A DNA stretch of 64,000 bases from Zygotorulaspora mrakii (taxonomy: Eukaryota > Ascomycota > Saccharomycetes > Saccharomycetales > Saccharomycetaceae): positions 1-64,000 of the forward strand of contig NC_050722.1 in NCBI RefSeq assembly GCF_013402915.1. Direction: 5' to 3'. Position numbers and translations under genes: made by a program. Every line of letters begins with the position of its first letter. The stretch's first letter is position 1. The notes below the pieces were generated by a model. That model was not told the DNA's origin. It saw only the letters and a program-made list of their open reading frames with translations, and searched no databases. Positions 1 to 20,955 of the stretch are shown in pieces.

Positions 1-486
1 CGCACCCCTACACCGCACCCCTACACCGCACCCCTACACCGCACCCCTACACCGCACCCCTACACCGCACCCCTACACCGCACCCCTACACCGCACCCCT
101 ACACCGCACCCCTACACCGCACCCCTACACCGCACCCCTACACCGCACCCCTACACCGCACCCCTACACCGCACCCCTACACCGCACCCCTACACCGCAC
201 CCCTACACCGCACCCCTACACCGCACCCCTACACCGCACCCCTACACCGCACCCCTACACCGCACCCCTACACCGCACCCCTACACCGCACCCCTACACC
301 GCACCCCTACACCGCACCCCTACACCGCCCCCTACACCGCTCCCCTACACCGCTCCCCTACACCGCTCCCCTACACCGCTCCCCTACACCGCTCCCCTAC
401 ACCGCTCCCCTACACCGCTCCCTACACCGCTCCCCTACACCGCTCCCCTACACCGCTCCCCTACACCGCTCCCCTACACCGCTCCC
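1..486. repeat. Telomere repeat array, 13-bp unit, two blocks
   Basis: The window opens with 25 exact tandem copies of CGCACCCCTACAC (1-325). One 12-base unit (326-337) follows, then about eleven copies in which the fourth base is T (CGCTCCCCTACAC), one of them a base short. The C-rich strand reads into the chromosome, so this is a left end. The long homogeneous unit resembles the precise repeats made by telomerases of many Saccharomycetaceae rather than the irregular TG1-3 of S. cerevisiae. The CACCCCTACACC portion resembles Rap1-type half-sites; that binding role is inferred. Confidence 0.95.
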
Positions 487-3400
487 CTCCCTCTTCCATT
501 TTTCACCTTCTATTTCTTTTCTATTTCATACACCCCTACACTCTCACATCTCTCATTCATTTCACATTCTTTTTTTCGCTCTTTTCTTTTTTTACTTTAC
601 ACACCCTACTCTCACATCTTCCTCCACCCTTCCATTTTTTCTTCACTTCCATTTCTCATTTCACACGACTCCACATTCCTTCATTTCCACTTCACTCTCT
701 CCTTTCACTCCACCACCACTACCACCTCACTTTCACACCTTTCCCCCTCTCTTTTCTTTTTTCATCACATCACTCATTCCCATTTCCCATTTCCTCACCA
801 TCTTCAACCATACATCACATTTCATTCACTCTTTTTCTCGACTTCCCTTTCCACTTTTCTTTTTTTCCATCATTCACTCCTCTACACCATTCTCCAACCA
901 TACTACTCCCATACTCCACACCCCTACCACTTTCTCCTTCACTTCCCATTTCCTCAACACTCTTTTTCACATTTCCACTCTCACTTCCCCACTCCCCAAC
1001 TACAACACACTCTCAGACTCCTTTTCTTCACCCTTTACTACTACACTACTACACAACTACACAACGACATTTCACTTTCTCATCTTCTCTTTCTTTCTTC
1101 TTTCTACTTCCCCTCCTACTTTCATCACCACTTCACCATCCCTCTCCCCTCACTCCACTTACACATCACTTCTTTCACCTCTTCATCCCACTTCCATCCC
1201 TCATTCATACACTTTCACATCCTCTTCATTCATCTCACATTCACCCCCAAACACTTCTTCATCTCTTCACCTCATTCTACCTCTACCATACACCACGCTT
1301 CTTTTTTCTTTTTCCCTTTTCCCTTCTCTTTCTTCCATCCGCTCCTCTACTTCAACATTCCCCACCATCTCCATTCATACACTCATACATTCATACATTT
1401 CCTTTCTTCACTTCACTTCCCTCCCATCCCCTCATTCCACTCAAACCACATTTCCATTCTCCATCACTTTCTCTCAACCACTCACTCAACTCTCAACTCC
1501 TTTCTCTCTCTACTCACCACTTCATTCCTCTTTTCTTTTTCTTCTTTCTTTCCCACTTCTCACTCTCATTCACTCTTCACTTCCACAACTCATCCTACCT
1601 TCATCTCATTCTTTTCATCACACTCACATCTCCTCACTCCCTCCTTTCACTCTCATCTTCTCTACTCTTCAACCACCACACATCTTTTTCATCTTTTCAT
1701 CTTTTCTTTTTTCTCTTTCATTTCTACTCTCACTTCATTCCTCACTCCACTCAACCACTCTCTCTTCCCACCTTCCCTCATTCCCACACCAACATCCAAA
1801 CTTTTCATCTCTTCCACGCTACCAACCATCCATTTCCATTCACACATCTACTCAACTTCTCTACCCTACTTCACTACACACTCTTTCTATTTACTCTCTT
1901 CCTCTCTTTCATTCTAACTTCCTTTTACCTCTCTACTCCTATTTCACTACACACTCTTTCATTCTACTCTCCCTTTTCACTCGCACATTTCCTTTTCACA
2001 TCTACATACACCATTCATACCACACTTCTCATACATTCATCATTTCTATTCCATCTTTTCATCACCTCATTTTACACATCTACTCCTTTTTTACTACTCA
2101 ACTCCCGACATTTACTCTTTCTCCTCACTCCCTTTTCACTTTCAACTACATCTTTTTTTCTTCGCTCTCTCATTCTTTCATCTTTCTTTTCTACTCGACT
2201 TCACTCCCCTCCTCATCTTTCATACAATTTCACTTTTACATTTCATTCTTTTCTTTCTTTTTACATACACCCTACTCTACTACATACTTCCATCCATTTC
2301 ACTCCACTCCCTTACACTCCCCTACACCGCACCCCTACCGAACTCATTTCATCTTCACTTTTCTACCATACTACTCTCCTTTCTTTCCTTTCCGTTTCTA
2401 CTACTCTTCGCTTCTCCACAACACTCCCCACCAAACTCTTTTCCTCTTTCATTCACTTCAACTTCTTTCTCCTTCCATTCACTTCAACTCTCATTCACTC
2501 TCCATCTTTTCATCTCCATTCATACATACTCAACTTTCTTTTCTTTTCACTTCAACTCCATCTCCCTCTTCATCTCCCTCTTCATCACCACTCTTTTCTC
2601 AACTATTCACTCTACTCTCACACTCCCTCTCTTCTTTTCTTCTTTCTCACACCCTCTCCTTTCTCGACTCTACTCTCCTACCAACACTTTCCATTTCTCT
2701 CTATTTTTACTACTTTTTCTTACTTTCTACTCCCATTCACTCCATTTCACTCTTCACATCAACTTCCAACCCTTTTCATCTTCTCATACACTTTTTTTTC
2801 CATTTCACATCCACTCCTTTTCCCTATACAACCACTCACTCATACTCCTTTTCCCTTCTCTACCATTCCCTTCAACTTTCCTATTCCTCTCCTACACTTC
2901 CTTTTTTCCACTCAACTACTCATCACTTCCCTCATCATTCATTTCACACCTACATCACGCTCTACCCACTTCTCTCCTCTTCTCCTTCTTTCCTTTCTCC
3001 TCTTTTCCTCAACTCTTCTTCTCTACTCGAACACACATTCTCGTTTCACCTCTTTCTATTCATTCCATTTCCTTTTACCTCTCATTCACACTCCATTTTC
3101 TTTTTCTCTTCACTTCGACCTTCCTTTTTTCTCTTACACTTCTTTCCTTCTACTCAACTACTCATCACATCTTTCACCTATCTCTTTCCACTTCACTCTT
3201 TTCATCATTCCTTTCACCCCTACTCCACTTCTTCACTCACTCCCTTTTCCTACTTCTTTCTCCTTTTTCTCTCCTACTCTTTTCATCTTTTCACCCAACC
3301 ATTCCCTTCACGTTCTCTTTTTCCCTTCCACTCCACACTCTTTCATCTTTCAACTTTACATCTTCACTTTTCATCATTTCTACCACTTCTCATCACTTCT

Positions 3401-3988
3401 TCTTTCTACTCCATCTTTTCATCACCTCGCTCTACTCAACTACTCATCCTCATTCCCTTTTCCATTCCTCTTCTCCTACTTCACTACCCACTTCCCACTT
3501 CCTTTCCTTTTCTCTACTCTACTCCACTACTAACTCATCCATTTCTCTCTACTTTCATTCTCTTTTACAACTCCAAAACTCTCTCATCCTAACCATCTTT
3601 TCATATTTTCCGTTTTTTACACTCTCAACTTCCCATTTCTTCCCACTCTTCTCATTACTCTTTTACTTCATTCATTCTCATCTCTTCTCTTACTTCCCTT
3701 TCTACGTTACTCTACTACTCTCCTCCCCATACTTTCATTTAACTTCCTTCTTTTTCACTTCCACTATTACCCAAACATCAACTTCATTCCATCTTCCTCT
3801 CTTCTTCAAACTACACATTCCTCTACCTTTCACTTTTCCTCTTTCTTCCACTTTTCCTCTTTCTTCCACTTTCCTACTTCCCTCACACTACTCCCCATCT
3901 CTCATCTTCTACGCACCTACACTCAACCGCTTTTTTCCTTCATACTTCCTTCATACTACTCCCGACGCTTTTCTCCTACTCTACACCA

Positions 3989-4125
3989 CCCCTTCCTTTC
4001 ACTCCCGTTCTATTCCTCACTCTTTCATCTACCCATCACTCCTTCCTTTCACTCCCGTTCTACTCCCCACTCTTTCATCTACACTTCACTCCTTCCTTTC
4101 ACTCCCGTTCTACTCCACATTCTAC
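3989..4125. repeat. 50-bp tandem repeat, about 2.7 units
   Basis: Units start near 3991, 4041 and 4091. Each begins with CCTTCCTTTCACTCCCGTTC and continues through a CTCTTTCATCTAC segment. Divergence between units is slight. The repeat lies inside the G-depleted tract and is non-coding. Confidence 0.8.
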
Positions 4126-4317
4126 TGCTATTTTCTACATCATTTCTTTCTCATCACTACGCTCTACCACCCCACTTCCTCTTTATTTTCCTTTTTCTTT
4201 TCTCCATTTCACACTTACATCCCATATCTCCTTTCCCCTACACCTTTCCCGTACCGCCTATTTTCATTCTACCCTCAACTCTTTTCATCTCTTTTACTCC
4301 ATAACCCTTTATGATTC

Positions 4318-4366
4318 CACTTCCTCTTCCTCTTCCTCTTCCTCTTCCTCTTCCTCTTCCTCTTTT
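4318..4366. repeat. Hexanucleotide microsatellite (TTCCTC)n
   Basis: About eight uninterrupted copies of the hexamer TTCCTC. They give a spurious Pro-Leu run in one frame. Confidence 0.9.
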
Positions 4367-5290
4367 CCATATCTTTCATACCACTCCCTCACCGCTCTCA
4401 TTTCGATTTCATCCGCCATTCAACTTCCATTCACCCCCTACCCTCTTCATCTATTACACTTCTCCCCTCATCTTTCATATTTTCCGCGTCTCATTCATTC
4501 GTTTTCTTCATTTCATCTTTTCCTTACATCACTCACCGTTTCACTTCTCTTCTCCTTCCCTCTTATTTTCAACCCCTCTCTTTCCACATTTCTTCATCCC
4601 CTTTTCACCAACCTACCACCTCACCTATTTCTTATCTACATATTTTTCTCCTCTTTGAATTACAACAACACACTTCCAACTCCTCTTCTTTCAAACTTCT
4701 ATTTCATCTTTCAATTATTACTTTTTTTTCTCTATTTCACCTCATTCATTCCTCTCTTTCTAACTCTTCTACCTCACTACTCTACTTCCTTCCTCCTTCT
4801 ACCCCCACTTATTCTTCCACTTTACTACTATACCTTACTCCATACTTCTATTTCCGCCACTCTACTCTTCTACACCTTTTCTTTCATTGAAACCTCTTTA
4901 CTATTCCCTTCTCCTTCACTCTACTTTTTCATTTCTTCTTACTTCACTCTATATTCACCATTCCTTTTCTTCTCGCTAACATATTTACACTTTTTTTCAT
5001 CACTCATCACTCTTTTACTAACCATTTTCACGATTCTTTTCTTCTATCCCTTTTTTACTTCTTTAATCTACAATGATTCTTTTACCTCAAAACTGACTTC
5101 TTCTTTTACCAACTATCTATTCTAAACCAACTACTAAACTATACATTACTCTTTTCATCACTACTCTCTCACGTATAACCAATATATTACTTAAATTATC
5201 TTTTCGCTTACCACTTTTACCTCCTTTCTCTTCCTTTCCTTGATTTACCATCGAGATCCATAAACAACTTCTTCTTTTCCCATCAAAAAG

Positions 5291-5437
5291 CGACAACAAC
5301 AACAACAACAACAACAACAAAAACAAAAACAAAAACAACAATAACAATAACAATAACAACGATAAATAACAACAACAACAACAACAACAATAACAATAAC
5401 AACGATAACAACGATAACAACGATAACGATAACAGCC
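5291..5437. repeat. Compound (ACA/ATA/CGA)n microsatellite
   Basis: Trinucleotide runs of ACA with AAC AAA, AAC AAT and AAC GAT variants extend for about 145 bp. The minus strand reads as runs of Cys, Tyr, Val and Ile in the overlapping frames, which I take as artefacts. Confidence 0.9.
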
Positions 5438-5630
5438 ACATATTTCCTTCAAACTGCTTACACTGGACTATCCAATTCTTTTATTCTTTATTCTCCCTTC
5501 TTTCCTCTACTCACTCCTGCTAACTTTTTCCTTTTACTTCTCACATTCCTTTACAAACATACATTATCCTATTTAAAATTTATTATTACAAACTTTCAAC
5601 TACATTATCTTATTTACAACTTATTATTAA

Positions 5631-5800
5631 ATTCCTTTATTTACATTCCTTTATTTACATTCCTTTATTTACATTCCTTTATTTACATTCCTTTATTTAC
5701 TTTCCTTTATTTACATTCTTTTATTTACATTCTTTTATTTACTTTCCTTTATTAAAATCCTTTATTTACTTTCTTCATTCACATTCCTTTATTTACATCT
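5631..5800. repeat. 14-bp tandem repeat
   Basis: About twelve imperfect copies of ATTCCTTTATTTAC. The first units are nearly perfect; later ones show C/T and A/T changes and one degenerate unit near 5750. Confidence 0.9.
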
Positions 5801-6710
5801 ATTTTCTATTTACACTTCTTAACTCACGTCCTTTACCACCCACTTACCCTACCTTCCTTACCTCACCACTTTTACCCCGTCGCATTTCGACAAATAATTC
5901 CTCTTTTCTCCTTTTTTAAAATCTATACCACTTCCGAACTCACTCAATAACCCCATTTCACCTCTACTTCCACCAAATCAGCCTTCATTCCCTTTTTTCT
6001 ATCCTCTTTCTTCACCCACTATCCCCCACTTAACGCATCGCTTCTTCTCAATAAACTCGCATTTTGACCAACTTTAACATTTAATTTAACTTCAATATCT
6101 ATTGCCATCCCTTATTTAATATTTCCCTTCCCTCTCCCTGCCTATTCACTTCCCTTGCCCTGCTTCTTCCATCACCCTCCTCGATTACCATTCCCTCCAC
6201 ATTCCATCAATCCATACCACTTTGCCTGTATGTAAACACTCGCAAACCATTCCTTAATTTACATCTGCAAACCCATCCTCAGCATCCTACACAACGCCAC
6301 AGAATATATTACGCCCACCATTCCCATCCTTACATTTACCTCCGTACCCCATTCCGCCATCTCTACACCATCGCCCAGACATTCGCTCCACAAACCCATA
6401 CAAACAGACGTCAGACCCACACATCTTCTCTCTTTGCCCCTCTGTATATCCCTCAATATCAACTTCGACTCAAAAAACTCTAAGCTCTACTTCTTTATTT
6501 AACGTTTTCTCTCTATTTTACTACTTCTTTTTCATTTTCGACACTTTTCACTTTTTTAAATTTTGAGAAATTTCTCCCCGACATGAAATAATCGCGTGCC
6601 TGCAAACATTTTTTTGGAATTTGATTTTTTTGCTCTCTCGAGGACCATGTACTTTGGGACCGTTACAAGTTGACATTACAAGAAAAGGAGCACTCTAACG
6701 TAGATTCATA
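5801..6710. other. Subtelomeric stretch without a gene
   Basis: Composition returns from G-depleted to normal across this stretch. No open frame here has coding character. The last 150 bp lead into the 3' side of the helicase element. Confidence 0.6.
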
Positions 6711-6713
6711 ATG

Positions 6714-6825
6714 TTTTATCACCAAAATCCGCACCATTCATTGGCAATACATCAGTATATCGAAAAAATGCGAAAACCTAAAACCCTGAGATCACTCGTT
6801 TTTGTTACAAATTATATACCGTTAT
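6714..6825. repeat. Element 3'-side repeat, copy 1
   Basis: About 110 bp here recur almost exactly at 12256-12366, in the same orientation. Both contain CATTCATTGGCAATACATCA and the following CGAAAAAATGCGAAAACC. It lies just beyond the 3' end of the helicase frame and marks the 3' side of the subtelomeric element. Weaker similarity runs on into the coding 3' end (6855-7260 against 12390-12690). Confidence 0.9.
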
Positions 6826-7009
6826 ATGCGCATCCATCTCTACCCTACGATTGTGCCTTTGTATTCTACCACCAGCTCCACAGCATATTCTACGAGACGT
6901 TGTACACTCACTTTTGGCAAGATCACAAACTACGATTACATGATATCTCAGAACACTACACCCTTAAACCTACTCAACTGCAAAGTCCCACGGCTTCTAT
7001 AAATCTATA

Positions 7010-7399
7010 CTACATATCACTCGCCTCACCTTCTATCAACACCTTGTTCAATCCACACTCCTCCACATACGTGCCCAGTACAAACCTGTACACAGGCACC
7101 CGCTCATCGTAAGCGCACACTCGCTTACACATCACATTGCCCAACCATTGCCCAAATACTTCAAACTTACGGTACCCTGGTAACACCCCACTCACCATAT
7201 CGTGAACATCCCCTTTCTCGTACACACAGTACAACAGGAGCACCAACAGCCGGAACTCATCCAAATCAAAACAGTCCCCCCGACCATGCCCGTCCCCCCA
7301 AAGTGTACCCGAAACAACTTCCAGCATGCGTCGGTGCGACCGCAGAAATATCTCCTTGTCTAACATTCTTGAATACCTGCTATACGGCTCTCTGTTCCC
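7010..7399 (-). pseudogene. C-terminal extension of the helicase beyond an amber codon
   Basis: After the TAG that ends the main helicase frame (7400-7402), the same frame stays open for a further 129 codons, down to a stop at 7010. The translated segment has normal protein character (rich in Val, Leu, Gly, Asp and Glu) and is not repetitive. The degraded second element at 12.5-12.7 kb matches DNA on this side of the TAG. I read it as the original C-terminus of the helicase, now separated by one nonsense change. Stop-codon readthrough, a sequencing error or an independent small gene starting at Met (7340) are alternatives. Confidence 0.65.
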
Positions 7400-10300
7400 C
7401 TACTCCATATCAATTCCGAATGGTTTCGATAGTCGACCTTCAAACACTAACGTCGCCACGTTTGCTTTCGACCGGACCACTGCGTGCCAAAAGTATGCCC
7501 ATTGCAACAATGCTCTTGACGTCACGTCGTCGTTGCATGTAATCCCCTCAATCGTCTCCGTGTATTCGGATTCCATCGCTTCCTCATATAGTCTGCTCCA
7601 CACCGCCTTCTGCCGCAGCACATGTTGCACGATGTTATGTCCTCGCCCCAGCTGCGCAAAATTAAAGAGGTGTCTCATATTTTGCCGTGCCGAGACAAGT
7701 CGAAGAAGAGCAAGTGCCTCCAGGATGATTTTTCCCATGTGCTTCCCAAACGTCTCACACTGGCAATACTCGTTCGACATGAAACAGGTCCGACAAACAC
7801 TCTCCGATAGGTTCATTTCCGCAGCTGTGAGTATGTGGTCAGCTGGCACCCCGTATATCAGATCCTTCATTCTGGGCAGGTCTGCCGATGTGCTATCGAA
7901 CAATAACGTACGCAACTCGCTCGCATACAGCCCTGTAGTTTTATTTTGGATGTTGTCGAGAATAAAGTCAAACATCCGCGAATGACCTTGATCCTCCTCC
8001 TCATCTCCCTCCTCTTCCGAAGGGACGTTTAACCTTACACTATGGACAATCCTGCGCACTTCGCCAATCTCCCTCGGACAACTTTGCTCCTCCCACGAGT
8101 TGCAACACAGCTGGTGGTCTGGTGCTGGCACCGAGTAGAACGACGCCACTGTTTCCGTTATACACTTGCTCCAGTTCACATCCCGCAAGTCCTCGTGTGC
8201 AACTGCATCCCTGAACTCCTTTTTCTTTCCAGCTATCCGAACCACCTCGAGGTACCCACTGCCCCTGATCCGTCCAACCATCTGTAAAAAGTCTATCACA
8301 TCCACATCACAGTCTGCCAGACACACATAGTCCACCGCATTGCAATCAAGACCGTTCGATATCAGCTTGGTCCCCATGATCACGCACACTGGACTCGATG
8401 CCGACTCGAACTCGCGAAATACCGAGAGCTTCACCCGGTCCGCCATCTCCGAATCAACCGCCGCCACTGCCGCTACCTTCTTCCACCGCGCGTAGCAGTG
8501 ACGCATCCGCGCCTTGTTGCTGAAGAAAATGATCGCCTTGCCTGTAGCAGTACCCAGCAGATAACTGTTCACACGCTGCTCGATTGCTCCTCCAAACTCC
8601 TTCTGCGGAACAAGTGTCACTTCCTTCAGCACTTTCTGGTTGGGCACCTGGTGTACAGCGTTCGTCCATCGCGCATTCCTCACCATGTACCGTGATAGAT
8701 TCAATTGCTGGCACAGCTCGTCCATCAGCCATGCCGGAAGCGTAGCACTTATAAAAACTATCTTAAGAAACTCCCTCCATCGCAGTGAGTGTATCTCTCT
8801 TAATTCCTCCCTGAAATCCTGCTCTAGCCACAGTGCGTGTGCTTCATCGAGAATAAAGTACCCCTTCTGCCGTACGCACATCAGTTCTTCCTGCCACCCG
8901 TTGATGGAGGAAAATGTCGCGTGCGTCCCAAACATATCAAATGTACCTACTAGCACATCTGTATTTTTCAGCTTACTTTTCCACTCCGCTGAACCTAGTA
9001 ATTTCAGATCTGCAACCGCAAGTCCCACTTCTTCTAGTCTCTGCATGGTTGCTATTTTGAGTGACACATATGGTACAGCTACAAAGTGCACGTATTTTCC
9101 GGGTCGTGTGCGCTTTAAAACGAGCATTGGTAACACAAAAGTCATGGTTTTGCCAAAACCTGTTGGTGCCTGAAGCGCCAGCACATTTCTGTCACCTGTC
9201 AATATCATATTCGTAAACCTCTCCTGCTCCACCGACCTGAACTTGAATCCGCTGATAATACCTGACCCTGCCTCGCATAGATTGGTGTAGTCACCAATCG
9301 TCCCTTCATCCGGTTCAGATGCAGCGCTACTTGTGCAAGCCGTGTCAGTGATGAGAGGGCCATTCTGTGTTAATTTCTGGAAAATTTGACACAACTTTTT
9401 TGCTGAGACAAACGGGACCTCCCCTGGACCAACGGTACGTGAGTTATCAAACCCGTACACTGCAGCATCCACCGACACTGAATGTCCAAACCCACGAGCA
9501 ACCGCCTGTCCCAGTTCCAGGGACTGGTCGTACAGCTGCCCCGCAATGAAATGCTTCCACAGAGCCGACAAACCATGTCGCATCGACCGTATCCTATGGC
9601 TCTCTCTCATTGCTGTCGCTGTCGGATACTTGAGAAGCATGTTCGAAAACGTTGACCGATGCACCAACACCAACTTCCTTACGTCCAGAAAGACCATACT
9701 CTTGAAAATAGCATTGCCAATCGTCTGTGGCGATGCATTATTTAGGCGGTTTCGTAGCTCCATTTGGTGATAATACAGCTCGGCGTTAAAGTTTATGTCC
9801 TCCACTTCTTCTTCAGTGTCATGCGTATCTGTAAGCGGCTCCTGAGGTGTGAGGGCACCCATGATGGCAGATATATTGATTTTAGAGATGTCGTCACCCA
9901 AAAGTACTATTGTGAACGGCCGCAGGATATAAATAAACCAGAATAGCTGTGCAGACACTCTTGTATCCAGAAATAGCAAGCGGGTGTCGTATTTTGTGTT
10001 TTTGTTATACCTTGACCGAATGATGAACACGCGATCGTCGGAATCAAAGTACAGGTTTCGGTGCGAACCGCCAAAACTAATGATGCTCAGTTCCGGAAAT
10101 CTAAGCGCCAGACCGGGATTGATCCAGACTGCCAACATCAAGAGTTTTGTTATAGTGTTGACGAGCTTTAGTATACTGGCGCGGACCTGCTCATTCTGCG
10201 CACTTGCCTGCTCTCGAAATCGCATGGTATACCCACTGACAGCCTCCGCACCTATTACATTGAACACGGAGTCCTGTCCAGAAAGGTTTTCTACCACACA

Positions 10301-11644
10301 TATACTCCTATTCGCCATTACAGTCATGTATACGTCGGACACACTTCCGAACTCCAGCCACCGGTGCAGTTCCTCCACATGTGCCTCGAGGTCCCTGTTC
10401 AAGTCACTTTTCATCTGAGCTACATATTCGAATGAGATCAATTTACCCTCCACACGTACAGCCCGCTCATCAGGATTCACCGTCACTCGCACCGTGGCCT
10501 CAATTCCTTCTTCTTTAGCAACCTTATGGTACAAACGTCTGAACCACCCCCAATAGTTAATCACAGAGAGATAGTTGCGACTTGCAAGCCAGTAGGCGGT
10601 CTCAGACACATTTTCTGTAGTGGCAAAGCATGTGAAAACTATCAGGCACCTTATCGTATCCATGATCCGTCGCGCCTTAGTCACTGTGTTCTCCGGACAC
10701 GGGACATCAGTACGGTCCCACACTGGAAAGTTGAACGCGCACATTCTTACCCAGCGAGCCAAATATTCACGGTAAATGTTCTCCCGAAGACAGTTATCGA
10801 AACATCTTCCGAGGGCTTTCATCTTGTAAACAATGGTATCCTGTCTTTCAGGATCATGTGTTAGCATTTCGATAACCCTATGAGGAAGAAAAGCATGCTC
10901 CGCGAAACAAGACAGGCGCCAGGCGTTGAACAGAAGAAATAAATACGGCGCGAGTGTCACCCCATACTGGTTTATCGTGCTCGGAGCAAACTTCTTTACC
11001 ATCGACGTAATACCATCCTTCATGTCTATGTTCAAATAGTTAGAGGCACTGTGCTCCGCCTTCAGGTATGCGAAGTTCAGATAATTCTGTCCAAAAACAA
11101 CGTAAGCGGTCTTCATTTCACGGAACTCTCGCAATACCTCGTAATCTTCCTCAGAAAAAGTAAACTCACGCACCTTAATAACGCGGGAAAGAACACTGTT
11201 ATCTTTGTCCAAGTGTAAATCGACACCTGCGTCAAGCATATCTACACTCTGCGCTAACACTGATAGTCGTATGTATTTGTGCTTTCTGGCACGTATATTT
11301 ACTCTATGGCACTGCAGGGTGAAAGATCTTCTCACACTTCCAGGATTCCGCCTGTAGAGTTCCTTTGATTGGGCGACGGTTTTCCCGTCTCGCAATTCTG
11401 CGAAATCATATGGCCTCACCTGTATGAAACTGAATAGTTCGGGGTCTGCTACTGGCAGTATAACACTTTCAGAAGTCAGATATCTATCCCAAGCACTCAA
11501 GTCCTGGTCCAGAATAACATTTTGGCGCTGTTTTGATAGTTTTCTTCGGCTTCGCCATGAGGGGTTGACCACCTTTTTTTCTTTCCTGTCCACCAGCCAT
11601 CCGTTTACTACTACATATTTGTCGCTTACCTCTACTATAGTCAT
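7400..11644 (-). CDS. Subtelomeric RecQ/TLH-like helicase with Sir1-like N-terminus and tyrosine-recombinase-like middle domain
   Basis: Protein of 1414 residues from the ATG at 11644. That start is preferred over an upstream GTG because the Sir1-like similarity begins at once. Residues 1-90 resemble the N-terminus of Sir1 (VNGWLVD at 13-19, a basic stretch, then a Trp and an ELF segment). Residues 490-735 have tyrosine-recombinase landmarks: GLALRFPEL with Arg near 515, a basic hairpin, SMRHGLSALW with Arg-His at 689-690, GHS at 720-722 and Tyr 730. Residues 800-1170 carry helicase motifs: APTGFGKT (826-833), DEAH (933-936), SATLP (966-970), IIFFSN, GTKLISNGLD and QMVGRIRG (1121-1128). A Cys cluster (C1284, C1287, C1294, C1296) may bind zinc. 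The overall type recalls telomere-linked helicases (TLH) and Y' helicases. A single TAG probably truncates it. The helicase call is firm; the Sir1 and recombinase domains are by eye. Confidence 0.85.
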   Translation of the reverse strand: MTIVEVSDKYVVVNGWLVDRKEKKVVNPSWRSRRKLSKQRQNVILDQDLSAWDRYLTSESVILPVADPELFSFIQVRPYDFAELRDGKTVAQSKELYRRNPGSVRRSFTLQCHRVNIRARKHKYIRLSVLAQSVDMLDAGVDLHLDKDNSVLSRVIKVREFTFSEEDYEVLREFREMKTAYVVFGQNYLNFAYLKAEHSASNYLNIDMKDGITSMVKKFAPSTINQYGVTLAPYLFLLFNAWRLSCFAEHAFLPHRVIEMLTHDPERQDTIVYKMKALGRCFDNCLRENIYREYLARWVRMCAFNFPVWDRTDVPCPENTVTKARRIMDTIRCLIVFTCFATTENVSETAYWLASRNYLSVINYWGWFRRLYHKVAKEEGIEATVRVTVNPDERAVRVEGKLISFEYVAQMKSDLNRDLEAHVEELHRWLEFGSVSDVYMTVMANRSICVVENLSGQDSVFNVIGAEAVSGYTMRFREQASAQNEQVRASILKLVNTITKLLMLAVWINPGLALRFPELSIISFGGSHRNLYFDSDDRVFIIRSRYNKNTKYDTRLLFLDTRVSAQLFWFIYILRPFTIVLLGDDISKINISAIMGALTPQEPLTDTHDTEEEVEDINFNAELYYHQMELRNRLNNASPQTIGNAIFKSMVFLDVRKLVLVHRSTFSNMLLKYPTATAMRESHRIRSMRHGLSALWKHFIAGQLYDQSLELGQAVARGFGHSVSVDAAVYGFDNSRTVGPGEVPFVSAKKLCQIFQKLTQNGPLITDTACTSSAASEPDEGTIGDYTNLCEAGSGIISGFKFRSVEQERFTNMILTGDRNVLALQAPTGFGKTMTFVLPMLVLKRTRPGKYVHFVAVPYVSLKIATMQRLEEVGLAVADLKLLGSAEWKSKLKNTDVLVGTFDMFGTHATFSSINGWQEELMCVRQKGYFILDEAHALWLEQDFREELREIHSLRWREFLKIVFISATLPAWLMDELCQQLNLSRYMVRNARWTNAVHQVPNQKVLKEVTLVPQKEFGGAIEQRVNSYLLGTATGKAIIFFSNKARMRHCYARWKKVAAVAAVDSEMADRVKLSVFREFESASSPVCVIMGTKLISNGLDCNAVDYVCLADCDVDVIDFLQMVGRIRGSGYLEVVRIAGKKKEFRDAVAHEDLRDVNWSKCITETVASFYSVPAPDHQLCCNSWEEQSCPREIGEVRRIVHSVRLNVPSEEEGDEEEDQGHSRMFDFILDNIQNKTTGLYASELRTLLFDSTSADLPRMKDLIYGVPADHILTAAEMNLSESVCRTCFMSNEYCQCETFGKHMGKIILEALALLRLVSARQNMRHLFNFAQLGRGHNIVQHVLRQKAVWSRLYEEAMESEYTETIEGITCNDDVTSRALLQWAYFWHAVVRSKANVATLVFEGRLSKPFGIDME

Positions 11645-12240
11645 TCTACCAAGCTTTTCCTTTAATGTTACCCGCCCTGCTATTTTTATAATCCAGAAAA
11701 ACTTTTCTTTCGGATTCCGCTTCCTATTATATTCCACCGGTCGCGCTCGAACTCGCGAACAAATTTACAGCCACCCATCCGTACACTACGACCAAATCTC
11801 TCTTCAATCTAAACTGCCCGTAACTCATGCACTACAGAACCTGCAGCTTTTGCCTTTTGAGTGCAGCCTTATTCGACAAGCTGGTTTCCCAGAACACTTT
11901 AAGTGCCTCGAAAATGTCTTTTTCTGATATCTTAAGGGCACTTCTGGTTTCAACTTTCACCTTCGCTAACATTTCGGTTTTTGTGACTAAGCATTCAAAA
12001 TTCTGGGCTAGAACACTTGCAGTCTTTTAATGATAGTGTGCGAAATTTCATAGCAGTCGGTGTATTGTGGCCAATTTTACACCCAGGGCCGTCAAACTCA
12101 CGTCGTCAGGGCCGCCAAACTCACGTCCCATACAAAAATCAGGGCCGTCAAACTCACGTTTATTATGGTGGGACCGTCAAACTCACGTCCTCGCATATTA
12201 ATGTGACACGATAGCCATAGAATAATGTGAGTTTTTCCAT
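11645..12240 (-). promoter_or_regulatory. 5' flank of the helicase element with four CCGYCAAACTCACGT motifs
   Basis: This stretch lies upstream of the leftward helicase. The 15-mer CCGTCAAACTCACGT occurs at 12089, 12145 and 12174, with a CCGCCAAAC variant at 12112 (spacing 23, 33 and 29 bp). The deleted second copy has two CCGCCAAAGTCACGT versions at 13542 and 13575, also 33 bp apart. Conservation of a short motif array at the same place in both copies suggests a binding site for a regulator or telomere-associated factor. The ACTCACGT part resembles a Cbf1/bHLH half-site. Function is inferred. Confidence 0.5.
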
Positions 12241-13600
12241 GTAGATTTATATTTTTTTATCACCAAAATCAGCACCATTCATTGGCAATACATCAGTATA
12301 TCGAAAAAATGCGAAAACCTAAAACCCTGAGATCACTCGTTTTCGTTACAAATTATATACCAGTATATTAAGATTTGTTTCTACTCTGCAAATGTGCCTT
12401 TGTATCCCACCATCAACTCCACAGCACATTTTATGACGGCTTGTACACTCTCTCATCTCCAGATCACACATGACGATACCCGCGTTCTCTTTTCGAAAAC
12501 GCTAGATGAACACCCATTATTCTCCACGTCCATCGAATCAGTGACAGTCAATACATAAGACTCCGAAATTCTCCTCAAACTTCTGGTACCCTGGTAGTAT
12601 GCTCCTCATCATATCGTGACCATCCCCTGCTTATGCACACAGTATAGCAAGGACTACCAACAGCCGCAGATCGTTGACTTGTCATACATGCCGCCTTGCG
12701 ATACAAAATCATCCATGGCCTCCTCACCAACGTACTCACTAAAATAATAGACCCTGTTTCAATCATGACGTTCCCTCACATATACGTCTTCACTTTACAA
12801 GTAATATTATCTTCATGCTTTACCGGCCCCTCATTCGATGCCACTACCCTATAACAACTCCCCTACAGTTTCTCGCTACCTAACAGCAACTGTTCATTAC
12901 CATCATAAATAACCAGTCTTTCCTATCATCCCGGTATATCAAAGCATCTACTTCACTAATCCTCCTCCTCTCTTCCCACCATTTTTTCATAACTCATCCC
13001 TTTCTTTACCTTTTTATCTAACTTAAGCATCATGTTACCAGTCCTTTGTATCACCCACCCCCACTTGTTTGTTCTTTTCTTCTCACTTTTTACACACATC
13101 ACATTCATTCCCGTCACTCTTCGCCTTACAGCCAGCTCGCTGTGAAAAAAACTATCGTTCTTATCGGCCAACCGCGCGAGCTGTGAAAAACTTATTCCCC
13201 GTTGCTGATGATCATTTCACTGGTTTCCTCATGTGCTACGAGAATCACCATGGCTCATCCAACCGATCTCTCAGGCACTTGACACTTTATGTGCCAATAG
13301 AGCTTCACACTCTTCATTCATTTTTAAAAAAACCGCAGCGGAAATGTCACTCCTTCATGATCTAGACGACAATCTCTTTTCAACTTTCAGCCACTCTCAA
13401 ATGCCTAAACAGCACGCTAGAGGCCCAAAACTGTAGGCTAGTACACTTGCACTAATTACCAGTAACTATGCAAAGTTACAGCTTTGTACCTCTTCTTGTT
13501 CGCTAGAAAACCCTACTACCACCAAAAACCAGTAGGCACTACCGCCAAAGTCACGTCCCATAGTAAATCCACTACCGCCAAAGTCACGTCGGGGCATAAG
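12241..13600 (-). pseudogene. Internally deleted second copy of the helicase element
   Basis: The left part (12256-12690) repeats the 3' repeat and the extreme C-terminal coding region of copy 1 with many changes. The right part (13340-13600) matches the upstream flank of copy 1, including two CCGCCAAAGTCACGT motifs. The helicase body is missing, so this is a tandem, same-orientation copy of about 1.3 kb instead of 5.5 kb. Frames are broken throughout. Part of it (13140-13450) also recurs at 27690-27945. Confidence 0.75.
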
Positions 13601-14839
13601 AATGAAGAAATTGGAAAAAAGAAACGCAAGTAGTAAAGAAATGCACCAGCTCAAAAGTTCCAACTTGCTTTTTTGAAAATTCTCGTATCTCATGCATTCC
13701 TCCTTTCATAAAGAAATAAATGACATCATTACTGCAGTAGGAAAAAACTTCGAAAGTGATCTAATAAAGCTGGGCTTTGATCAATGCCCTCTAGATACGA
13801 ATCTCGATCCCGAGAAGCAAGCAAACGCTTTTTCTCCAAGACCTTGCTTCTCTCGTCAGTAAAATCCATCCATGTTCGAAGATGCTTATCATCAAACATG
13901 GCATAAGCGGAAAGGGGGTTGTTCAAAAAAACCCTCTGTACACACTTTCATTTGTGGAACGTGCTGTCAAAGAAGAATTGGAACGAAGGAGTCCAAATCT
14001 ATCAGGTTTGAATATACACTCTTAGATACTTCTCCGTAATATAGTACAATAGCATGCAATGCTACGCATTTAATGTCATGTGACCTCGATGATTGCCGAG
14101 CACACAATTGCCAATTTTTTCATCCTCATTAGGCTCAAGTCAAGTTTTGATCATAGGACCGGTGGTAGTATGATGCCTTTTCTTATTTTGCAAAACTGTT
14201 CAAATATGAACGTTCCAATATTAGGTGTATATAGCGGCAAATCTGCTTTCTATTGAAACTTATTTCAATACCACAGCATTTCTTATCGTAAATATACCTG
14301 AAGTACAGTATGAATAGATCACACCATGATCTAATCCCCCACAATCCGGCGTCAGCAGACTGCTACTTGCACCGTGACAACTTGACCTTTATTTAACTTG
14401 TCGCTTTGAAAAACATATATCAGAATAGAACTGTGTTTTATTATTTTTGGCAATCTAGTTGTTTCTTGGGTACAGACCATTTCTTCTGAAAACTATTTCA
14501 GCAAAAACAGAAATTTAGGGAAAACGCTACAATAGTTGAATGATAGTTAGAATAAAACGACGCTAAAATATCCTTGTTTCCAAATGGTTGTACTTTTTCT
14601 TTGGGAGAGATTTTGTATATTTAGTCGAAATCTATCAGGTTTTATTACGAATGAATGATGACTAACCCGCCAATCGTAAGCTTTATGGACATAATAGTTG
14701 AACATAATGAAGCCACACGCGTATTCAGAGTTTTATATCTTATGATCGATGATAACATGATTTCGGGTCTACCATAAAACCTGAGGTGTCTCCTAAGTCC
14801 AGGGGTGTAAATGTTGAATTCGAAAATAGATACCGAGTA
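13601..14839. other. No recognisable gene
   Basis: A short leftward frame of 65 codons (13729-13926) has protein-like composition but no family I recognise, and no neighbour that supports it. The rest has frequent stops in all frames. I see no RNA gene or repeat here. Confidence 0.5.
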
Positions 14840-15552
14840 CTAAGCCTTACAGGTGTGCTGGATGGCGTGCCAGCACCACTCCATAAAAGAGTGCATTATG
14901 TAAGACATATGCCAGTCGCAATACGTCTGTTCGCCCACTCCGCTATTGTAGCGTTGCGCACACTTTTTGTTTAGTATTAAACAATCACGAACGTCGTAGC
15001 ACCTTTCATCTACACACTGCCCTATTTCCGACTCACTATCGGATCTCCTGTGGCGCTGAGAAGCCTTCAAGGAAACCGTCTCGTCTGAACCATTATTCGT
15101 AGACCTTCAATCCTGCCAGTGTTCTATGCCTCTGATACATGCCTCCCTTGAACGTCATACATTGGTTGTATCACATATTGAATGATATCTGTACAATAAT
15201 CAGTCTCATTGTCGAATGGCCTAGGTCCAGAATACGATGAGAGATTTAACCAAGGTTGCCCCTTTTCAGCATATGTTGTAGGTGGGACTTCTAAAATTTC
15301 TGATCTCAATCTAAAAGCAGGCAAATCTTCATTTGCAAATCTGCATGTACGAAAGGTCTTACCTGTGTTATCACTTAAAGCATCAATATAGCTATTCTCT
15401 ACCAGCCAACAAAGTTGCTGTTGCGTTGCCCCGGTAGGTGTGTGCATCATGACCTGACTTAAATGTTCGACGTTAACAGCTAAGGTTGTCCGAGCAATAG
15501 AAGAGGTGATCAAAATCACTACTAGTAAGACTTCAAATGATCTTGTTGGCAT
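14840..15552 (-). pseudogene. Putative secreted, Cys-rich protein, broken
   Basis: The first part (15124-15552, from the ATG at 15552) starts with a clear signal peptide (hydrophobic core VLLVVILITSS, small residues before the predicted cut). It has two N-glycosylation sequons and three Cys. A TAG ends it. After about 50 bp and a change of frame, a second part (14840 to about 15100) shows a dibasic RHRR site followed by a segment with many Cys. Signal peptide, glycosylated pro-region, Kex2-type site and Cys-rich tail is a layout used by secreted yeast precursors, including killer-type toxins and other peptides. No specific family is recognised and a toxin role is not claimed. The frame break could be real decay, or the two parts could be separate small genes. 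Confidence 0.4.
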
Positions 15553-16078
15553 ATTTTTCTGTTCACTTTTAATTGTTGTTCTGAGACAGCAGCCGACCAA
15601 GCCAAATACGTTTTCTAATAACAGATTGTGCGCTCATTTATAGCACTCCACCCTATCTGTTGAACGCAATTGTATGTGATTCACGTAATATCAAGTACTT
15701 GCCAATATTCTAATATAATTTTCTTACTACCACTACCTAGTTGATCCCATCCGACATGCGTTTAACTTCCTGAGGCAATGAACTGCTGAGCGATTTCCCA
15801 GAGATATCATATATAAAAACTGTGCCCTACTGGTACGTTTCCTATTTTTCCCGAATCATGCAATACGAGATAGGGTGAACGTGAGGCTATAATTAGCTTC
15901 GAATAAAGTTGACATTTATCTATCTGCTCATTTCAGAAAATGCTATTTTTTAGTCATTCATCATGACGTGTTGATATGAATTTATTTTCCTCTTATCCTT
16001 TCACTTGTTCATATTCGTTCAATAGCCTGTATGTTTTGCCGCTAATAGGAGGACTGACTAATGCGTTTTAATGCCAAT

Positions 16079-19023: not shown

Positions 19024-20955
19024 ATGATTGATTCCTCGAGGAGGGAACAAGAATGTTCGCGCTTGTTGCCTAAAGGGAGTCAACCGTCCACGCTAGCGGC
19101 AAACCACGAAATGGCAAAGGACCTTCCGTTCTCAGACCGCGGCGATTTTGAGGATGCTATCCGAGGATATGTTGGCTCAATACACGATGAGCAAATACTA
19201 GGTTCTGATGGCAGTATAGTATGGAGCATGAAGCCGTATGATTTTTTGAAAACAGATAATTCCTCAGCTACTGTTAATCCCAGTCTGTGGAGGCAAGCGC
19301 AACTCAATGCAATTCATGGACTTTTTGAAATCACCAATGGTGTTTATCAGATAAGGGGGCTAGACATTGCAAATATGACTATAATTGAAGGCGATACCTC
19401 CTTAATAATCATAGATACTCTTTTCACTACGGAGACAGCCCGGGAATCATTGAAACTTTACTATGAGCATCGCCCTCAAAAGCCTGTGGGTACCGTAATA
19501 TATACGCATAGTCATTCCGACCATTACGGGGGAGTTAAAGGTGTGGTTAACGAAGCAGATGTAAAAGCCGGAAAGGTACAAATAATTGCGCCAGTAGGTT
19601 TCATGGAAAGCGTTGTAGCGGAAAACTTCCTAGCAGGGAACGCGATGCATCGACGTGCACAGTATCAATTCGGTATGTTACTTCCTAAGGGAACACGAGG
19701 GCTTGTTGATTGTGGGATAGGAAAAGCAGCATCCCATGGCACTGTTACACTGATTGCGCCAACAAGTACTGTTGCAGATCCGTTCGAAGAACGAACAATT
19801 GACGGTGTTGAGTTTGTATTCCAGCTTGTTCCAGGATCGGAAGCTCCTTCAGAAATGCTTATTTACTTGCCACAACAGCGCATACTCAATATGGCTGAAG
19901 ATGTCACGCACCATATGCATAATTTGTACGCTATTCGAGGTGTCGAGGTACGTGACGGTAATCAGTGGGCCAAATACATTGATGCGGCTCGCGTAGCTTT
20001 TGGTGGCCAAACAGATATTTTAATTGCCCAACATCACTGGCCCACCACAGGGCGGGAGCGCGTCAACGCAGTACTGAAGAAGCAGCGTGATATGTATAAA
20101 TTTATTCATGACCAAACCCTTAGATTACTTAATCAAGGTTACACTAGTAGAGACATTTCCGAGATTCTTCGTATGCCGTCCAACCTTGAGCATGAATGGT
20201 CAACACGAGGCTACTACGGTACCCTAAGTCATAATGTAAAGGGTGTGTATCAGAAATATATGGGATGGTATGATGCCAACCCAGCCAATCTTAACCCATT
20301 GCCACCTGTGGCCAGTGCGAAGAAGGTAATAGAGTATATGGGGGGCGCTGAGGCTGTGTTAGCGCGGGCTTACAAGGACTTCCAAAAAGGCGAGTTTCGT
20401 TGGGTTGCAAGCGTTGTGAATAAACTAGTTTTTGCTGAGCCAGCCAACCGTCAGGCCCGGGAGCTTTGTGCTGATGCATTGGAACAATTAGGGTATCAGT
20501 CAGAAGCAAGCACATGGCGTAGCGCATACCTGGTAGGCGCTATGGAATTGCGTGAGGGTGTGCCAAAAAGACCAAGTACCGGTAAACGCAATAACCTTGG
20601 CGCACTAAATAATGCAATGCTATTTGACTTCCTTGCCGTGAGATTAAATGCAAGCAGGGCGGAAGGTATGTTGATTGTTGCAAATTGGTGCTTCGTTGAT
20701 TCAAATGAACGGTTTGTTCTTACTCTGGAAAACTGTGCCCTAACGAATGTGAGAGGTTTACAGGCAGATGTAGATGCAACGGTTACTCTTAGTAGAGACA
20801 CATTGGAAGCATTAATAGATAAGGAAACTAATTTGGATGATGCTGTAAAGAAAGAAAAAGTGTCAATTGAAGGTGATCAACTAAAAATTGAACAATTTTG
20901 GACCTTGTTCGATGATTTTGACCAATCTTTTCCTGTGATCGAACCCATGAAATAA
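19024..20955 (+). CDS. BDS1: Alkyl/aryl-sulfatase, bacterial-type metallo-beta-lactamase fold
   Basis: Protein of 643 residues, close to S. cerevisiae Bds1 (646). It hydrolyses alkyl or aryl sulfate esters and releases sulfate for assimilation. The metal-binding motif THSHSDHYGG lies at 161-170 (H162, H164, D166, H167), and further His and Glu ligands follow in the MAEDVTHHMHN segment. An alkyl-sulfatase dimerisation region follows, and the last 120 or so residues fit an SCP2-like substrate-binding domain. The family is widespread in bacteria, and the yeast gene is a known case of horizontal transfer. Start: the ATG at 19024 gives the family length. The next gene, same strand, is a sulfur-compound transporter, which fits a sulfur-scavenging pair. 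Subtelomeric position matches the patchy distribution of BDS1. Confidence 0.93.
   Translation: MIDSSRREQECSRLLPKGSQPSTLAANHEMAKDLPFSDRGDFEDAIRGYVGSIHDEQILGSDGSIVWSMKPYDFLKTDNSSATVNPSLWRQAQLNAIHGLFEITNGVYQIRGLDIANMTIIEGDTSLIIIDTLFTTETARESLKLYYEHRPQKPVGTVIYTHSHSDHYGGVKGVVNEADVKAGKVQIIAPVGFMESVVAENFLAGNAMHRRAQYQFGMLLPKGTRGLVDCGIGKAASHGTVTLIAPTSTVADPFEERTIDGVEFVFQLVPGSEAPSEMLIYLPQQRILNMAEDVTHHMHNLYAIRGVEVRDGNQWAKYIDAARVAFGGQTDILIAQHHWPTTGRERVNAVLKKQRDMYKFIHDQTLRLLNQGYTSRDISEILRMPSNLEHEWSTRGYYGTLSHNVKGVYQKYMGWYDANPANLNPLPPVASAKKVIEYMGGAEAVLARAYKDFQKGEFRWVASVVNKLVFAEPANRQARELCADALEQLGYQSEASTWRSAYLVGAMELREGVPKRPSTGKRNNLGALNNAMLFDFLAVRLNASRAEGMLIVANWCFVDSNERFVLTLENCALTNVRGLQADVDATVTLSRDTLEALIDKETNLDDAVKKEKVSIEGDQLKIEQFWTLFDDFDQSFPVIEPMK

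Follow-up and report, generated by a model that had tools for sequence, protein, structure and literature searches.

The left end of contig C4 of Zygotorulaspora mrakii carries a repeated subtelomeric element with one large gene of the Y′ family. The stretch analysed here (the window) comprises C4 bases 1–64,000, and its left end is called C4L; the genome amounts to 10.45 Mb in nine contigs. The telomere (1–488) consists of ~37 copies of 13-base repeats, CGCACCCCTACAC in its outer block and CGCTCCCCTACAC in its inner block, and is followed by a C/T-rich subtelomeric tract with strong strand bias (489–6654), which is common to other chromosome ends. Over this ~6 kb the plus strand is very G-poor, with a GC skew of −0.87 to −0.95 per 2 kb in 1–6000. 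The gene sits inward of the telomere and the C/T tract, on the minus strand at 7400–11644 (1414 codons from the ATG, 1414 amino acids). Its reading frame closes at an in-frame stop at 7400–7402, past which the frame continues for 129 residues and a further stop (7010–7399, minus strand) that resemble the C-terminus of a relative, P0003. The protein contains a Sir1-type domain of the kind that binds the origin recognition complex (ORC), termed OIR (residues 6–125; 11270–11629), a region modelled as a tyrosine-recombinase catalytic core (residues 485–760; 9365–10192), and a superfamily 2 (SF2) helicase (residues 799–1134; 8243–9250), all on the minus strand.

As far as sequence and models show, the central part of the protein adopts a tyrosine-recombinase fold with active-site-type residues, and its catalysis is putative. 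The predicted structure of the window protein contains the catalytic-domain fold of tyrosine recombinases, with a structural match starting at residue 386, and the model of Yrf1, the Y′ helicase of Saccharomyces cerevisiae, shows the same fold; the two structure models are not independent, all 12 sequences behind the second being also behind the first. Specifically, the core carries Arg515, the first catalytic-type Arg (in RFPEL; 10100–10102), Lys548, between the second and third strand (10001–10003), Arg689, the second catalytic-type Arg (in MRHG; 9578–9580), His721 (in GHS; 9482–9484), and Tyr730, the putative nucleophile (9455–9457), all encoded on the minus strand. These five residues and E518 are invariant in all eight aligned sequences, and the spacing of nine residues from His to Tyr is found in nine of nine. 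Only 26 of 291 alignment columns are invariant, and all six signature columns are among them; the corresponding figure of 2.9e-7 for six out of six is post hoc and drawn from related sequences, and is not used as a probability. The distance from the Lys to the second Arg is 141 residues in the window protein and 108 in P0006, a Yrf1 protein.

An earlier note, made from the letters of this DNA, had proposed a tyrosine-recombinase-like core in the middle of a telomere-linked helicase, with an Arg...RH...GHS...Tyr series. The core is borne out by the modelled fold and the conserved residues. Within the series, the two Arg residues, the GHS, and the Tyr are real and invariant in 8/8 sequences, but the His of 'RH' (H690) lies outside the signature, and is Gln in seven of the eight relatives. 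The second His/Lys position of tyrosine recombinases is not kept, the aligned sequences having Arg, Leu, Met or Ser there; this position varies across the tyrosine recombinase superfamily. The recombinase part gave no match in profile searches of PDB sequences or of Pfam, and Foldseek on its own gave no lead. No description of a recombinase in Y′ or telomere-linked helicases was found among the papers listed from the literature searched, outside which most subscription papers and preprints lie, and within these searches the domain appears to be new to print.

The recombinase part is under purifying selection. Compared with the copy at C1L, the recombinase part, with 7 synonymous and 3 non-synonymous changes, has a ratio of non-synonymous to synonymous rates (dN/dS) of 0.13, and the helicase one of 0.20; the overall ratio of 0.32 is not relied on, its alignment running past the end of the stretch that matches. 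Compared with the copy at C4R, synonymous sites are saturated, with dN values of 0.23 for the recombinase part and 0.22 for 131 aligned helicase codons. On these values, the recombinase part is constrained much like the helicase.

The N-terminal domain matches Pfam PF11603 far above chance, as the earlier note had claimed of a Sir1-like N-terminus (1e-20, 74.8 bits against a cut-off of 24, profile positions 2–119 of 120), and all five relatives scanned retain the match, so that its loss from all helicase homologues, which that note had named as refuting, did not occur. Furthermore, a profile built from seven such N-termini, one of them partial, picks up the three Sir1 sequences with crystal structures across the full domain (1.1e-7 to 2.1e-7), and the whole domain of the window protein aligns to 1zhi, 1z1a and 1zbx, the difference being that Sir1 is a silencing protein whereas the module here is part of a helicase. 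All five PF11603 matches above cut-off in the genome lie in regions of similarity to the window protein, at most 45 kb from a contig end; a sixth, below cut-off, is located elsewhere. The PF11603 search found no stand-alone Sir1-type gene above cut-off in this genome, and three BAH matches above cut-off are present. The likeness to Sir1 suggests that the module is aimed at the BAH domain of Orc1. The positions aligned to Sir1 R493 and D503, which we take to be Orc1 contacts, are K9 and D19 in the window protein and R and D in P0004, and differ in P0005 and in the S. cerevisiae Y′ protein. The last two cases speak for the alternative that the module has lost Orc1 binding and serves another contact, which we regard as somewhat the less probable course but one to be taken seriously.

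The C-terminal part is a helicase of the DEAD/DEAH type by Pfam (DEAD, residues 807–972; Helicase_C, residues 1031–1126). The earlier note had called it RecQ-like, a label that, taken strictly, finds no support: the NCBIfam recQ model scores 20.6 bits against a cut-off of 640, and RecQ membership is rejected.

Relatives were collected with a Yrf1 query sequence, which matched 275 proteins, 120 of them listed. Among the matches listed are Yrf1-6p of strain YJM1399 (P0006) and the Y′ helicases P0022 and P0023 of S288C. Residues 10–1183 of the window protein align to residues 38–1255 of P0006 with 23% identity (8e-73), colinearly from the Sir1 domain through the helicase; the identity is 44% for P0004, in the alignment, and 34% for P0005. 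Sir1, DEAD and Helicase_C, which follow one another in this order in the window protein, are all found by Pfam in P0004, P0005, P0006, P0096 and P0098. A lineage-specific fusion is thus ruled out, as Yrf1 and four further scanned relatives have the same Pfam layout. The earlier note knew of no described protein with this layout, but Yrf1 is a colinear homologue with the same Pfam domains, and its make-up of Sir1 and helicase domains was already in print in 2019 (PMC6726248, section 12); that section makes no mention of a recombinase. Judged by sequence, the window gene belongs to the Y′ family, and its layout is not unique.

Beyond the N-terminal Sir1 domain, the modelled tyrosine-recombinase fold, and the DEAD/Helicase_C pair in colinear order, the window family and Yrf1 have in common that both are repeated and subtelomeric, the window family lying next to telomere repeats at chromosome ends. 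They differ in that the Thr/Ser/Asn-rich repeat stretch of Yrf1 is absent from the window protein, and that the window element has a four-copy terminal motif array and no telomeric repeats at its tandem-unit junction at 12203. In S. cerevisiae, internal telomeric repeats separate tandem Y′ units, which is a trait of the DNA element and does not define kinship of the proteins.

The S288C proteins P0022 and P0023 are without the motif of the first catalytic-type Arg (RYPEL), and P0022 is without 129 residues found in P0006 (452–580) that include this Arg; the missing stretch in the S288C models may have hidden the recombinase domain from annotators. P0100, whose record names it a helicase of Streptococcus mutans, shares 99% with yeast Yrf1 in the covered part, probably owing to a contaminated assembly.

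Upstream of the gene, the element has a defined end. A four-copy array of the 15-bp motif CCGYCAAASTCACGT (12089–12188, plus strand) lies at the centromere-side end of this unit (unit 1), 445–544 bp upstream of the ATG, and is followed by the unit 1 terminus, CTCGCATATTAATG (12190–12203, plus strand), after which a truncated older unit (unit 2) begins directly, with one or two bases ambiguous. Unit 2 (12202–13604) retains both element flanks without the helicase gene, carries motif copies at 13542–13556 and 13575–13589, and has its own terminus, GGGGCATAAGAATG, ending at 13604. In the genome, CCGYCAAASTCACGT occurs with at most one mismatch at 15 places, 14 of them subtelomeric, and a reversed control pattern at one. 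Units carry one to four copies of the motif at their centromere-side ends; past the last copy, ~14 more bases lead to GCATAAGAAT(G/A) or a slight variant of it, beyond which the flank differs from case to case. Six different flanks lie beyond this point, in window units 1 and 2, C1R (the same as C3L), C5L, C5R and C6R. In window unit 2, C1R and C5R, the likeness between units breaks off directly at the end point. In window unit 1, C5L and C6R, the end point was assigned from the resemblance of the terminal sequence, the motif copy of C6R having two mismatches. An additional array in the interior of C1R stops earlier. Three of the flanks fall within older units, in their 3′ regions, at approximate equivalents of window 6662, 6884 and 7074, and no telomere repeat was seen at these three junctions within older units.

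An element end defined by an enzyme is expected to be sharp and to join unrelated sequence, which is not expected of homologous recombination; from the sequences, the centromere-side end of the unit looks enzymatically defined. A second precise end was not found, the one precise end recurring in six places, and a 43-base block near 6655–6700 differs between two groups of chromosome ends. Because C1R has a single copy of the segment that an insertion of unit 1 into unit 2 should have doubled, we prefer a joining of unit 1 to a truncated end over a two-ended insertion into unit 2.

Relatives at the protein level lie near nine chromosome ends, C4L (the window), C1L, C4R, C6R, C5R, C1R, C3L, C3R and C2R, many of them decayed, and a C/T tract like that of the window lies at seven other ends (C1L, C1R, C2R, C3L, C4R, C5L and C6R). 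At C1R, C3L, C2R and C5L, the C/T tract is followed by a short gene-less unit like window 12202–13604, the match extending to 13608 (C1R and C3L), 13262 (C2R) and 13178 (C5L). C1R and C3L match the window with equal identities over most stretches. The comparison with window 1–16000 covered the contig ends other than C7R and C8R; neither a match nor a telomere repeat was found at C2L, C3R (last 9.9 kb), C6L, C7L and C8L or on contig C9, and for that reason the assembly may be incomplete at these ends.

Further observations concern single copies and the surroundings. The C4R copy (C4:1302750–1306208) is chimeric, with 63% identity in residues 259–930 and 92–97% in residues 923–1414. At an internal site, C1:715022–715285, 87 residues of the recombinase region survive as a decayed fragment (41%, with stops), possibly the relic of an internal insertion. 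The order of the two telomere repeat blocks is identical at C1R, C2R and C4L, as would be seen after a change of the repeat template or if the inner block spread together with the subtelomere. An alkyl-sulfatase-type gene with a metallo-beta-lactamase fold (PF14863, PF14864) lies near the chromosome end at window 19024–20955.

On the best reading of these data, Y′ elements either are mobile elements of the tyrosine-recombinase kind, equipped with a module directed at Orc1, or have such elements as ancestors. For the Zygotorulaspora Y′-type element, we consider it likely that one large protein combines a Sir1-type module directed to the Orc1 BAH domain, a tyrosine recombinase, and an SF2 helicase. 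The recombinase would recognise the defined element end or the terminal array and cut and join DNA there, and a unit carrying its own telomere-side DNA would be joined to truncated chromosome ends; alternatively, the unit might leave and re-enter as a circle. The Sir1-type module could recruit the protein to ORC-bound chromatin that is subtelomeric or silent, so that joining takes place at chromosome ends, and the helicase could open DNA for strand exchange or for replication of the unit. Movement by the recombinase is the more likely because the element ends are precise.

The main rival reading takes the recombinase fold to be domesticated and non-cutting, a DNA-binding part of a subtelomeric chromatin or helicase factor, with the units spreading only by homologous recombination and break-induced replication. 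Ndc10 is described as such a domesticated, non-cutting DNA-binding fold of the recombinase type. Ectopic recombination between ends is clear from the likeness of C1R and C3L to the window and from the chimeric C4R copy, and the loss of the second His points the same way; the retention of Arg, Lys, Arg, His and Tyr in eight of eight sequences, however, goes beyond the needs of DNA binding alone, and the sharp unit ends on unrelated flanks argue against it as well, so that we think this account unlikely. Least probable, and to our mind a slim chance, is an origin of the unit ends by reverse transcription, in which a retroelement makes cDNA from Y′-type RNA and this cDNA becomes attached to chromosome ends, the recombinase being incidental. 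In S. cerevisiae lacking telomerase, Y′ RNA is mobilised by Ty1 (PMC7175516). cDNA joined to ends typically has one fixed side, while the sequence of its other side varies or is absent, and the flank at unit 2 is A-rich, but the fixed end is on the promoter side, 559 bp upstream of the start codon, the other junctions have no poly(A) run by eye, and the conservation of the catalytic-type residues is left unexplained.

The window protein resembles XerH, Cre and the Tn1549 integrase in its modelled catalytic fold, the Arg-Lys-Arg-His-Tyr series, and the His-to-Tyr spacing of nine, and differs from them in having no sequence-profile match, a replaced second His, a long spacing from Lys to the second Arg, and a fusion to Sir1 and helicase parts. 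As in Cryptons and Starships, the setting is fungal and the recombinase gene lies near one element end, reading inward, as the captain gene of a Starship does; unlike them, the window protein has no Pfam match to their families, and the element is telomere-linked and carries helicase and Sir1 parts. A Crypton transposon has two precise ends and short flanking repeats; for the element studied here, one such end was found, at six places, and the other was not found.

For Y′ elements, the conserved recombinase domain and its active-site-type residues offer a possible explanation of where they come from and how they move, and the biology of telomerase-negative survivors gains a candidate enzyme. 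Through the Sir1-type module fused to it, we suggest, such an element could be directed to ORC-bound chromosome ends or be silenced by them. More broadly, and only as a tentative proposal that we hold to be doubtful, Y′ elements in general, those of baker's yeast included, could be telomere-capping tyrosine-recombinase transposons led to chromosome ends by an Orc1-binding module from which Sir1 descends. The fusion also raises the question of whether Sir1 came from such an element.

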